64,000 bases of DNA. It comes from Archaeoglobaceae archaeon (lineage in GTDB: Archaea; Halobacteriota; Archaeoglobi; Archaeoglobales; Archaeoglobaceae). The stretch lies in assembly GCA_027028145.1 (NCBI GenBank), contig JALVJV010000011.1, positions 124,001-188,000 of the forward strand. Direction: 5' to 3'. A program made the position numbers and the translations under genes. How positions within the stretch are numbered: position 1 is the first letter of the stretch; each line of letters begins with the position of its first letter. The notes under the pieces are model-generated. The model had not been told where the DNA came from and ran no database searches. It was given only the letters and a program-made list of their open reading frames with translations. Positions 8,369-26,467 of this stretch are shown here, in pieces.

Positions 8369-9175
8369 GTGGCAAAATGCGACGTGTGTGGGAAGGAGGA
8401 GTATCTGCCTTATAAGTGCAAATACTGCGGCGGGACGTTTTGTGCCGAGCACAGACTGCCGGAGAAGCACAACTGTCCGGGAATAAAGAAGGACGAATAT
8501 TGGAACGTTCCGGTTAAGGTTAAGAGGAGGGACAGCATTGCAAAGCCCATCGAAGTTCCTGTTAAATCCGTGAGGAAATCAGTTCGTAAGATAGGCGTTT
8601 ACGGCTGGAACAACGTAATCATCGGAATCTGCACCGTTGTTTTCTTCATAAAACTGTTGTTCGGAAGTATAGTCGATTACTACCTCGCCCTAACTCCGGC
8701 TCTGATCCTTAAGATGCCTTGGCAGATCGTCACCGCAATCTTCGACCATGCCGGCTTCTGGCACTACTTCGTTAACATGTTCGTCCTCCTATTCTTCGGT
8801 TCGGAACTTGAGAGAAGGGTCGGAGGGAAAAACTACCTGAAGGTTTTCTTTCTATCCGGAATAGCCGGAAACTTAGCCTACATAGCTTACGCATACTACA
8901 CCAACCCGTTCATTCCGGCTTTGGGAGCTTCAGCGGCTATATTCGGTGTTATGGGAGCTTTAGCCATGGTTGCCCCATACATGAACGTCGTGATATTTCT
9001 CCCCATACCCATTCCGCTCAACATAAGGTGGGCTATACTCCTGTTCGCTCTGTATGACTTGGTTCTCCTTCCTTTCTCGATGCAGACGGGAGTAGCACAC
9101 ATGTCGCATTTAGCCGGATTGATGGTCGGGTTATACTTGGGCAAAATGCTTAGAATTAAGGGGAGATGGTATTGA
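8369..9175 (+). CDS. AN1 zinc-finger/rhomboid intramembrane protease fusion
   Basis: A 268-residue protein with an N-terminal AN1-type zinc finger (CDVC, CKYC, CAEHR, H of EKHNC; residues 3-38) and a rhomboid domain of six or more membrane helices. The serine motif GASAAIFG sits in the predicted helix 4, with HxxxN (HYFVNMF) earlier and the catalytic histidine in HMSHLAG. It should cleave membrane proteins within the bilayer. GTG 8369 is chosen: TATAAATATATCC at 8339-8351 lies about 25 bases before it, giving a leaderless transcript, and the reading frame before it would overlap the divergent biotin carrier. It overlaps the next gene by 10 bases. Confidence 0.82.
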   Translation: MAKCDVCGKEEYLPYKCKYCGGTFCAEHRLPEKHNCPGIKKDEYWNVPVKVKRRDSIAKPIEVPVKSVRKSVRKIGVYGWNNVIIGICTVVFFIKLLFGSIVDYYLALTPALILKMPWQIVTAIFDHAGFWHYFVNMFVLLFFGSELERRVGGKNYLKVFFLSGIAGNLAYIAYAYYTNPFIPALGASAAIFGVMGALAMVAPYMNVVIFLPIPIPLNIRWAILLFALYDLVLLPFSMQTGVAHMSHLAGLMVGLYLGKMLRIKGRWY

Positions 9176-10110
9176 AGCCCGTTGCAGTTTGGGTTGAGAA
9201 GGAGAGGTTGAATGGAGATATAGTCAGATGTCTAACGATCATACTCCGCTCGAGGGGTTGCTACTGGAACCGATGCCTGATGTGCGGCTACAAGAAGGAC
9301 ACATCTAAAGACGTAACGCTGAAAGATCTGATCGATCAATTCAATTTTGCTTTAAAGAGGGCAAATGGGGTAGATGTCGTTAAAATATTCACATCGGGAA
9401 GCTTTTTCGATTCGAAGGAGATTCCGAAAGAGTTCAGGAGCTTCGTTTACGATGCTTTGACCGGTAAGATTAAGAAGCTCATAGTGGAGAGTCGTCCGGA
9501 ATTCATAAACGAGGAGATTGCAGAAGAGCTTTCATCGCTTGAATTCGAAACGGAAGTTGGTATAGGGCTTGAAACCGCAGATGATTTCATAAGAGAGCAC
9601 TGCATAAACAAGGGCTTCAGCTTCGAAGATTTCAAAAGATCCGCCAAGATCTTGAAATCCCACGGCGTTAGGGTTAAGGCGTATCTATTGCTCAAGCCTC
9701 CGTTTCTGTCGGAAGGTGAAGCTATAAGGGATGCGATTAGATCCATTAAAGCTGTTAAGGGTTTAGCCGATGTCGTATCGATAAATCCGACTAACGTCCA
9801 ATCGGGAACTTACGTGGAAAAGCTCTGGTTCAGAGGCTTGTATCGTCCGCCTTGGCTCTGGAGCGCCGTTGAAGTCCTTAGAAACGCTGAGATCGATGCG
9901 ATATGCGATCCGGTTGCTTATGGAAAAGCGAGGGGTCCGCACAACTGCGGGAGATGCGACGGGGATGTTGCAAGGGCTATAAGGGAATATTCCTTAACCC
10001 AAGATGCATCGGTGTTCGACGGATTGAGCTGTTCTTGCCTCAAGTTGTGGGAGAGAGTCGTTGAGTTGGAGGATTATTCGAGAATTCCGTTAGCTTTAAT
10101 ACACGTCTGA
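9166..10110 (+). CDS. Archaeosine biosynthesis radical SAM protein RaSEA
   Basis: A 314-residue radical SAM protein of the TIGR01210 family. The cluster motif CYWNRCLMCGY is near residues 32-42, and the C-terminus holds CGRCDGD and LSCSCLKLW. RaSEA works with ArcS: ArcS attaches lysine to preQ0 at tRNA position 15, and RaSEA cleaves it to leave the formamidino group of archaeosine. Its start lies within the rhomboid gene. Second gene of a four-gene plus-strand operon. No arcS is in this window, but a QueF-like protein is encoded at 24665. Confidence 0.82.
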   Translation: MVLKPVAVWVEKERLNGDIVRCLTIILRSRGCYWNRCLMCGYKKDTSKDVTLKDLIDQFNFALKRANGVDVVKIFTSGSFFDSKEIPKEFRSFVYDALTGKIKKLIVESRPEFINEEIAEELSSLEFETEVGIGLETADDFIREHCINKGFSFEDFKRSAKILKSHGVRVKAYLLLKPPFLSEGEAIRDAIRSIKAVKGLADVVSINPTNVQSGTYVEKLWFRGLYRPPWLWSAVEVLRNAEIDAICDPVAYGKARGPHNCGRCDGDVARAIREYSLTQDASVFDGLSCSCLKLWERVVELEDYSRIPLALIHV

Positions 10111-24664: not shown

Positions 24665-25387
24665 ATGTCTATGAAGGTCGTAGTCTGCGGATCCGTCGGA
24701 TACGGCGGAATCGAGGAGATCAGAAGAATTCAGAGATTTCTTAAGGAGAAGGGTTACGATGTCTTGGATCAGTTAAAGCTGGATTACAGCGATATCGACG
24801 ATTTCAGGGATAAACCAGAACTTTGGAGCAAAATAGTTCGAAACGACCTCGAATTCTGCGAGAAAGCGGATGCGATAGTTCTAATAGCAACAAACCCGAG
24901 CTTCGGAGCGATGGCTGAAATCGTCATCTCTTCGCTTAAAGGTAAGCCCGTCGTAGCTTACTGCCCGAAAGCGGTGAAATCTCCTTGGCCACTCTACTTC
25001 GCAACATCGATAGCCAAGAACGATGAAGAGTTGATAAGAGCGCTTGAATCGATGAAACCGAAGAGGATAAGGACGATTCCGAACATCTACGGAAAGCACG
25101 AGGCTGAATTCGTTTACGAAAACTTCACGTGCATATGTCCGGTTACCGGAAGGAGAGATTATGCGGTGATCAGGATTAGATACAAGCCGAGAGACAGGCT
25201 AATAGAATACGAATCCCTCGACGAATATTTCAAGGATTTCGAAGATAAGGCGATGCACCACGAAGCGGTAGTCGAAAAGGTATTCAACGATCTCCTAAGC
25301 GAACTCAAGCCCGAGAAGTTGGAGGTCATCGCAGAGTTTGAAGAGAGGAGCGGTGTTAGGGCAATAGTCAGACGCTCGACAGATTGA
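24665..25387 (+). CDS. Nucleoside 2-deoxyribosyltransferase-like/QueF-like fusion protein
   Basis: A 240-residue two-domain protein. Residues 1-125 form a Rossmann-like domain with VVVCGSVGYGG, then NDLEFCEKADAIVLIATNPSFGAMAEIVISSLKGKPVVAY, matching nucleoside 2-deoxyribosyltransferase-like proteins. Residues 150-236 match QueF: FTCICPVTGRRDYAVIRIRY carries the QueF catalytic Cys and Asp, and HHE carries the Glu. The QueF motif that normally reads ESKSLK is EYESLD here, losing the lysines. QueF reduces preQ0; QueF-like proteins lacking reductase features make archaeosine from preQ0-tRNA. The latter role is an inference. Start 24665 or 24671. Confidence 0.72.
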   Translation: MSMKVVVCGSVGYGGIEEIRRIQRFLKEKGYDVLDQLKLDYSDIDDFRDKPELWSKIVRNDLEFCEKADAIVLIATNPSFGAMAEIVISSLKGKPVVAYCPKAVKSPWPLYFATSIAKNDEELIRALESMKPKRIRTIPNIYGKHEAEFVYENFTCICPVTGRRDYAVIRIRYKPRDRLIEYESLDEYFKDFEDKAMHHEAVVEKVFNDLLSELKPEKLEVIAEFEERSGVRAIVRRSTD

Positions 25388-25412: not shown

Positions 25413-25925
25413 ATGACATCGCACGACGACGGACACGTCGAAAGGGTGGTGAGGTGGGCCGTCTATCTTGCAAAAAGGGAAGGAGCGGATGTAGAAGTCG
25501 TGAAGAAGGCGGCTGAGCTTCACGATATAGCGAGGGATAAGCCGAATCACGCGATTGAAGGAGCGAAGATGGCGAGGGAGATTTTGAGATCGGAGGGATA
25601 CGATGAGGAATTCATAGCCAAAGTGGTTCACTGCATCGAAGCCCACTCTTTCAGCTCTGGAATCGAGCCGAAAACGATTGAGGCAAAAGTCTTGAGCGAC
25701 GCGGACAAGTTGGACGCAATGGGAGCGATAGGAATCGCAAGAGCTTTCATCTTCAGCGGAGAACACGGGAGGAGCATAGAAGATACTCTTAAGCACTTTG
25801 ATGAGAAGCTTCTGAAGCTGAAGGACACGCTTTACACGAAAACGGCTAAGCGAATGGCTGAGGATAGGCACAGGTTCATGTTAGAATTTTACGAAAGGCT
25901 CAGGAAGGAGCTTGAGGAGCCGTGA
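25413..25925 (+). CDS. HD-domain phosphohydrolase
   Basis: A 170-residue HD-superfamily protein. Metal ligands are H (SHDDGHVERV), HD (AAELHDIAR), a later H in the VVHCIEAHSFSS stretch, and D (LSDADKLDAMG). It resembles YedJ-like and archaeal HD hydrolases acting on nucleotides or cyclic nucleotides; the substrate is unknown. It starts 25 bases after the QueF-like fusion and overlaps the following MFS gene (GTGA), so the three genes may be one transcript. Confidence 0.82.
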   Translation: MTSHDDGHVERVVRWAVYLAKREGADVEVVKKAAELHDIARDKPNHAIEGAKMAREILRSEGYDEEFIAKVVHCIEAHSFSSGIEPKTIEAKVLSDADKLDAMGAIGIARAFIFSGEHGRSIEDTLKHFDEKLLKLKDTLYTKTAKRMAEDRHRFMLEFYERLRKELEEP

Positions 25926-26467
25926 ACAGAAAGGTTGTAGCCTTCTGCTTATCCCTGCTTCCGCTCATGATTTCATCGGGCATGGTATATTCGGTTCTGC
26001 CGATCTACATTTCGGACGAGCTTAAGGCGAGCGATTTTGCAGTGGGATTGCTATTCACGATCGGCGCTTTGACGGGAGTTTTTACATCCATCCTTATCGG
26101 CAGGATATCGGACAGGCTCGGAAGAAAGCCCCTTATACTCCTTTCCCAGATAGCCTTTGCGATGGTTATGCTCACATACTCCTTCATAAGCTACTACATC
26201 TACGCTATCCCGATTCACATCCTTGAAGGTTTCGCTTGGGCGACCATAGGCACGGTTGCTCCGGCTTACATAGCAGATTTAGCCGGCAGAGAAGAAAGGG
26301 GAGAGTCTATGGGCATATACAACACGGTTTGGAGCTTGGGTTGGGTTGTAGGCCCGATCTTAGGCGGTTTCCTTGCAGAATTCTTCGGTTTTAGGTTGAT
26401 GCTCAGATTTGCGTTTCTGATGATAATCTTGGGTCTTATACTCACTGCTCTTGCTAATTCGAAGTGA
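25922..26467 (+). CDS. MFS transporter, half-size (N-terminal six helices only)
   Basis: A 181-residue protein with about six membrane helices, equal to the N-terminal half of a major facilitator protein. The family loop 2-3 signature is intact (GRISDRLGRKPLILLSQ), as is the helix 5 region (VWSLGWVVGPILGGFLAEFFGFR). Normal members have 12 helices and about 400 residues. Translation ends cleanly after helix 6, and the 38 bases to the next convergent gene encode no second half. It starts with GTG overlapping the HD gene. Either a truncated remnant or a homodimeric half-transporter. Confidence 0.65.
   Translation: MNRKVVAFCLSLLPLMISSGMVYSVLPIYISDELKASDFAVGLLFTIGALTGVFTSILIGRISDRLGRKPLILLSQIAFAMVMLTYSFISYYIYAIPIHILEGFAWATIGTVAPAYIADLAGREERGESMGIYNTVWSLGWVVGPILGGFLAEFFGFRLMLRFAFLMIILGLILTALANSK

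Follow-up and report, generated by a model that had tools for sequence, protein, structure and literature searches.

Archaeosine occurs in nearly all archaeal tRNA. Among the enzymes that act on preQ0, the unimodular nitrile reductase QueF (4f8b, TIGR03139) adopts a T-fold with a thioimide-forming Cys, an Asp and a His-Glu pair, and is defined by the motif E(S/L)K(S/A)hK(L/Y)(Y/F/W), which holds the NADPH-binding residues (PMC5372742). Pyrobaculum QueF-L (5jyx) has the same fold and catalytic residues and has lost the NADPH motif. The NDT fold, for its part, is shared by the 2'-deoxynucleoside 5'-phosphate N-hydrolase DNPH1/Rcl, the CMP N-glycosidases MilB/BcmB, and the nucleoside 2'-deoxyribosyltransferases together with AvNRT of Archaeoglobus veneficus. 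In the salvage of queuine, the base is freed by the hydrolases QueK and Qng1, acting on Q and Q-5'MP, and Q precursors are carried by a member of the MFS family. No deoxyribosyltransferase or AvNRT fused to QueF is known in the literature searched, and no description of an NDT-QueF fusion was found there, subscription papers being outside its scope.

An NDT-superfamily domain fused to a QueF-like domain

The window, the whole stretch of 64,000 nucleotides analysed here from an Archaeoglobaceae contig, contains an open reading frame (24665..25387) encoding a protein of 240 residues plus stop; this and all other features located below lie on the forward strand. The protein consists of an NDT-fold domain (residues ~3-130) followed by a unimodular QueF T-fold domain (~135-238). 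The former carries PSFGAMAEI (78-86) and GKPV (93-96), the latter FTCICPVTG (154-162), RRDYA (163-167), EYESLD (181-186) and HHE (198-200). Pfam matches QueF with 66 bits (E 3.6e-18) and Nuc_deoxyrib_tr (PF05014) with 25.1 bits (E 2e-5), slightly below the cut-off of 28.8, which the relative in locus L031 clears at 29.3. The window protein scores 89.2 bits with the NCBIfam model QueF-II (TIGR03139), whose cut-off is 86.9, and its relatives score 84.1-101.2; the full-length AlphaFold2 model has a pLDDT of 86.9. The two-domain composition that an earlier note had read from the sequence is thereby confirmed.

The 14 intact homologues, which come from separate assemblies, all have this domain order, and the intact gene is under purifying selection, with dN/dS ~0.05-0.08 wherever dS can be estimated. 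For both reasons, an assembly artefact or a chance joining is ruled out and the fusion is genuine. Each half is of a known kind; we know of no other protein that joins the two and has a cofactor site altered throughout the family.

Distribution and phylogeny

The fusion is present in 15 of 59 genomes of the heat-loving Archaeoglobi, spread over 7 of 16 genera, Candidatus Mnemosynella among them. The fifteenth copy, in G021 (L016/L090), has been disrupted by frameshifts close to the active site of the QueF part. Within Mnemosynella, the fusion gene is overlapped at its end by a radical SAM protein (L028:6725-7651 and L030:6714-7646). Outside its Archaeoglobi clade the fusion was not found, either in a genome-wide scan with two short family motifs, which fusions in distant phyla could escape, or in profile searches of the genomes of this phylum. 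Across the wider phylum, 22 genomes have a Pfam QueF match, 8 of them outside Archaeoglobi; among these 8, at least three (G186, G278 and one G378 match) are GTP-cyclohydrolase-like, and the NDT domain is absent from the QueF-like proteins inspected outside the class. Among phages and plasmids, matches are confined to the QueF part, and a motif scan of IMG/VR returned zero relatives of the fusion; a viral origin was rejected on these grounds. A role in anti-phage defence was likewise rejected, as PADLOC gave no match for the fusion.

In the QueF-domain tree, the fusions make up a single clade (100/99) to which none of the bacterial, phage, haloarchaeal or Pyrobaculum sequences belongs. The Pyrobaculum QueF-L branch is very long and badly placed in this tree, in which the fusion is, weakly, not grouped with QueF-L. 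The fusion of G048 clusters with Mnemosynella and not with its own family, a placement that hints at transfer. This genome is the sole fusion carrier of its genus and the sole member without both QueC and QueD, a single case. Two further QueF-family observations concern haloarchaea. One genome (G255; L034, L054) has two different QueF-family genes ~1 kb apart, the first with the NADPH motif and His-Glu, the second with the motif and an altered His-Glu (ITGEE). Another haloarchaeal QueF-like protein (L049:1456-1896) is without the NADPH lysines (ELMSYR) and has QueF-L 5jyx as its best PDB match, making it, from its sequence, a possible QueF-L outside Crenarchaea.

The N-terminal domain resembles nucleotide N-glycosidases

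Predicted alone, the N-terminal domain (residues 3-130, 24671..25054) adopts the NDT fold with a pLDDT of 93.3. Foldseek ranks the deoxyribosyltransferase 7o62 first (TM 0.83) and Rcl/DNPH1 after it, while Rcl/DNPH1 is the best match in a profile search; identity to the DNPH1/Rcl and MilB/BcmB enzymes is about 20%. Standalone NDT relatives within Archaeoglobi yield weak matches only (E >= 5e-5). Residues D61, D69, S79, E85 and S106 are invariant in all 14 intact sequences. In the HMM alignment to Rcl, D61, S79 and E85 fall on DNPH1 D80, S98 and E104, which act as acid, phosphate ligand and nucleophile, respectively (PMC10603095), and together with D69 they form the predicted glycosidase active site (24845..24919). 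S106, which begins a Ser106-Pro-Trp stretch of the fusion's own, is matched less surely, with a small gap, to the second phosphate serine, S128'.

The position of DNPH1 Tyr24 and MilB Phe17 selects deoxyribose or ribose, and Phe at this place gives a ribose preference in MilB (F17) and AvNRT (F7) (PMC10603095, PMC7308715, PMC4081090). In the window protein it is residue 6 (24680..24682), a Val; across the fusion family V, I, L, M and F occur there, and Tyr never does. The place equivalent to S79 is held in AvNRT, an NDT, by an Asp that binds the 5'-OH (PMC7308715). Whereas deoxyribosyltransferases and AvNRT bind nucleosides via Asp and Asn, the fusion family has Ser, and Ser in place of Asp, six positions ahead of the catalytic Glu, suggests that the substrate carries a 5'-phosphate.

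Of the features of a deoxyribosyltransferase, the domain thus has the NDT fold and the catalytic Glu and is without the deoxyribose-selecting Tyr and the 5'-OH-binding Asp; of those of the DNPH1/MilB type, the Asp acid, the Glu nucleophile and the phosphate Ser at E-6 are all present. With S79, D61 and E85 kept, the selecting Tyr absent and Ser rather than Asp at 79, the domain looks like a ribonucleoside 5'-monophosphate N-glycosidase of the DNPH1/MilB kind rather than a deoxyribosyltransferase. The label NDT-like, applied in the earlier note, holds at the level of the superfamily and fails at that of the deoxyribosyltransferase; the same residues speak against its suggestion of an enzyme acting on a deoxynucleoside.

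The C-terminal QueF-like domain has lost the NADPH motif

The C-terminal domain (residues 135-238, 25067..25378) is modelled as a QueF/QueF-L T-fold. Foldseek matches it to the thioimide complexes 4f8b (B. subtilis QueF) and 5jyx (QueF-L) with TM values, normalised to target length, of up to 0.9, and its sequence identity is about 29% to QueF and 14% to Pyrobaculum QueF-L. By alignment, Cys158 (25136..25138) is the thioimide-forming Cys (B. subtilis QueF Cys55), Asp165 (25157..25159) is the general acid/base (Asp62), and HHE 198-200 (25256..25264) provides the substrate-anchoring His-Glu (Glu97). Cys158, Asp165, His199 and Glu200 are invariant in the 14 intact copies, which extends to the whole family the retention of catalytic Cys, Asp and Glu noticed earlier in the single protein. 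The fusion is without the Cys99 partner of QueF and has an additional invariant Cys156, two residues ahead of Cys158.

At the place of the NADPH motif, the window protein reads EYESLD (25205..25222), a change also pointed out before; every intact homologue has E-Y-E-S-L, then D, E or K, instead of E(S/L)K(S/A)hK. The first motif Lys is Glu in 14/14, and both Lys positions are altered in most members. Pyrobaculum QueF-L (LAIEEFKK) has I-E-E-F at this place, its third motif position likewise being Glu, and the fusion shares with it a QueF active site without the NADPH motif. Because the motif reads E-Y-E-S-L, with Lys lost to Glu, NADPH-dependent reduction by the fusion appears unlikely. NCBIfam naming would make it a preQ1 synthase although the motif is missing, and for this reason that annotation is probably wrong.

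The Lys-to-Glu change may also be read as a switch of cofactor and not a loss, in which case the protein would be a nitrile reductase making preQ1 or a preQ1 nucleotide with NADH or another hydride donor. We regard this as unlikely. The score above the curated preQ1-synthase cut-off fits a reductase, as do a tree position nearer to bacterial-type QueFs than to QueF-L and the retained Arg of the R-G-G stretch (R228), and phage and halovirus QueFs formerly taken for QueF-L make dPreQ1 (PMC6884629). However, the motif Lys positions that are altered here, the first to Glu throughout, are retained in reductase-type QueFs, namely the B. subtilis type and those of Dp-1, R26L and HVTV-1. To our knowledge, preQ1 has no use in archaea making archaeosine only, which also counts against a reductase.

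Coexistence with the canonical archaeosine genes

The archaeosine radical SAM protein RaSEA is encoded within the window (9166..10110; TIGR01210, 399 bits), as the earlier note had it. In the same genome, arcTGT and full-length ArcS (550 bits) lie side by side (L085), ~3 kb past the window end. ArcS was found in all 15 fusion carriers; five Archaeoglobi genomes, mostly incomplete assemblies, have no full ArcS match, and the fusion is in none of them. The QueF-L trait of ArcS absence is thus not found in any carrier, and replacement of ArcS by the fusion was rejected on this co-occurrence.

Since arcTGT, ArcS and RaSEA are present in this genome and ArcS in all carriers, a preQ0-tRNA amidinotransferase, the reading placed first in the earlier note, would be redundant. 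In its fuller form, this reading makes the fusion a second archaeosine synthase, in which preQ0 in tRNA is amidinated by the QueF-like domain, as by QueF-L, and the NDT domain binds RNA or plays an accessory part; in its favour are the catalytic residues common with QueF-L and the absent NADPH motif. The reading is nevertheless very improbable: crenarchaeal QueF-L has a distribution inverse to that of ArcS (PMC5485725), whereas the two-domain fusion occurs in no genome without ArcS and coexists with it instead of replacing it, and the reading would hardly account for an invariant glycosidase site. With the canonical archaeosine genes in place, another job is needed for the fusion, so that of the first reading it is the idea of a different target that survives.

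Compensation for lost preQ0 synthesis is not supported as that job, QueC being absent from 5 of 14 carriers versus 9 of 44 non-carriers (Fisher p = 0.29). The assembly under study is without queC, queE and most of queD (G000:C9:1-4056, C11 end; L086, L087); the absence is due to a contig gap, C9 breaking off within queD, and the near relative G035 has queC-queE-queD. Vut_1 (YhhQ-type) transporter genes are common in these genomes, often two where QueC is missing: G004, G013, G021, G022, G048, G057 and G058 are without QueC and QueD and have two such genes each. The paired transporters are likely to be preQ0 importers.

Neighbouring HD and MFS genes

The next gene after the fusion (25413..25925) encodes an HD-domain phosphohydrolase of the YpgQ/YedJ type. 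The solved structures closest to it include YpgQ 5dqv, which splits (d)NTPs to monophosphates with a preference for dGTP (PMC8177086). The HD gene directly follows the fusion in seven genomes (G000, G035, G037, G038, G015, G041 and G042), with the fusion stop overlapping the HD start (ATGA) in G015, and in G036 (L024:6001-7218) a single open frame of 406 aa encodes an NDT-QueF-HD three-domain chain. The HD gene is near-universal in Archaeoglobi (52/59 genomes), which weakens the HD protein as a specific partner of the fusion, and in G019 (L082:508-2019) it follows the GTP cyclohydrolase MptA. Given both findings, the HD family may serve the pterin pathway (MptB role) or be a general phosphohydrolase.

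The HD stop overlaps (GTGA) the start of a half-size MFS membrane protein of 181 aa (25922..26467). The MFS gene follows in seven carriers (G000, G035, G037, G036, G015 and G017, and one gene further in G038). Its length is 174-191 aa (window 25922-26467; L025:6711-7232), and since half size is conserved in two genera, the protein is probably a true half-transporter and not a fragment. No such MFS gene lies beside the HD gene in the five non-carrier genomes examined; the HD-MFS pairing was seen only in fusion carriers.

Two other readings draw on these neighbours. As a cleaner of the nucleotide pool, the HD protein and the glycosidase would remove non-canonical (7-deaza)guanine nucleotides before their entry into RNA or DNA, while the QueF-like domain would bind or detoxify the base. 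This fits DNPH1, a nucleotide-pool sanitiser (PMC10603095), YpgQ, an NTP pyrophosphohydrolase (PMC8177086), and the operon shared with the HD protein, fused in one genome. No DpdA-type DNA-modification gene was seen near the fusion, however, and we consider such cleaning quite unlikely. We also know of no source of (7-deaza)guanine triphosphates in these cells. An anabolic enzyme, in turn, would build a 7-deazaguanine nucleotide or secondary metabolite by glycosylation and amidine or amide formation, and the MFS protein would export the product. The NDT family catalyses reversible transglycosylations, the MFS gene is in the operon and the distribution is patchy, but the conserved neighbourhood holds no further biosynthetic genes, and little likelihood is given to this reading.

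A possible role in nucleotide recycling

Conversion of NTP to NMP, of NMP to base, and base chemistry could follow one another in three proteins; with a membrane protein beside them, this suggests nucleotide recycling, and preQ0-type bases are indicated by the nitrile specificity of the QueF site. From these features we tentatively propose, as a possibility, that the fusion recycles archaeosine and preQ0 nucleotides from tRNA turnover without NADPH. It would be a two-domain enzyme handling 7-deazaguanine nucleotides outside tRNA. As substrate of the N-terminal domain we hypothesize a ribonucleoside 5'-monophosphate left by tRNA breakdown, either archaeosine-5'-P or preQ0-5'-P. Its N-glycosidic bond would be hydrolysed by way of a covalent Glu85-ribosyl intermediate, Asp61 serving as acid, and ribose-5-phosphate and the free base would be released. 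The base would be handed to the C-terminal domain, where Cys158 may bind the carbon of the nitrile or amidine as a thioimide, with Asp165 moving protons; as NADPH binding is absent, ammonia or water would resolve the thioimide. Overall, the reaction would probably run from archaeosine base to preQ0 and NH3, opposite to that of QueF-L, since preQ0 is accepted by canonical arcTGT and archaeosine base is not. The HD protein would strip triphosphates of pyrophosphate and so supply the nucleoside monophosphates, and transport of the base across the membrane would fall to the MFS protein. It is rather doubtful, as a claim in full, that this would be the first archaeosine/preQ0 recycling enzyme, in which one chain (with HD fused in one genome) frees the base and an NADPH-free QueF domain runs backwards to give preQ0 for arcTGT.

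Recycling is favoured because archaeosine is in tRNA, arcTGT is unable to use its base, and bacteria and eukaryotes recycle queuine. Archaeosine base, which is no substrate of arcTGT, reverts to preQ0 (PMC5485725), and this ammonia loss without an enzyme may make an enzyme for the step needless at high temperature. Also against recycling, isolated QueF-L with ammonia resolved only the preQ0-tRNA thioimide and not that of the free base (PMC5485725). The presence of the fusion does not track the loss of preQ0 synthesis (QueC), and the patchy occurrence of the family marks its task as dispensable. NDT-type enzymes usually protonate N7 of purines, which 7-deazaguanines lack, so that the glycosidase may act on another nucleotide.

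The whole would be an archaeal counterpart, from a different protein family, of the Q-5'-monophosphate salvage of bacteria and eukaryotes. Like Qng1 and QueK, the fusion is proposed to release a 7-deazaguanine base from the nucleotides that tRNA breakdown leaves; unlike the fusion, those hydrolases have unrelated folds, act on queuine and not on archaeosine or preQ0, and perform no nitrile chemistry. The literature searched yielded no described archaeal route for recovering archaeosine from degraded tRNA. Queuine recovery exists in bacteria and eukaryotes, and the domain pairing makes archaeosine recovery in archaea testable with one protein. Recycling by the fusion, if true, would give the QueF active site a third outcome alongside reduction and amidination.
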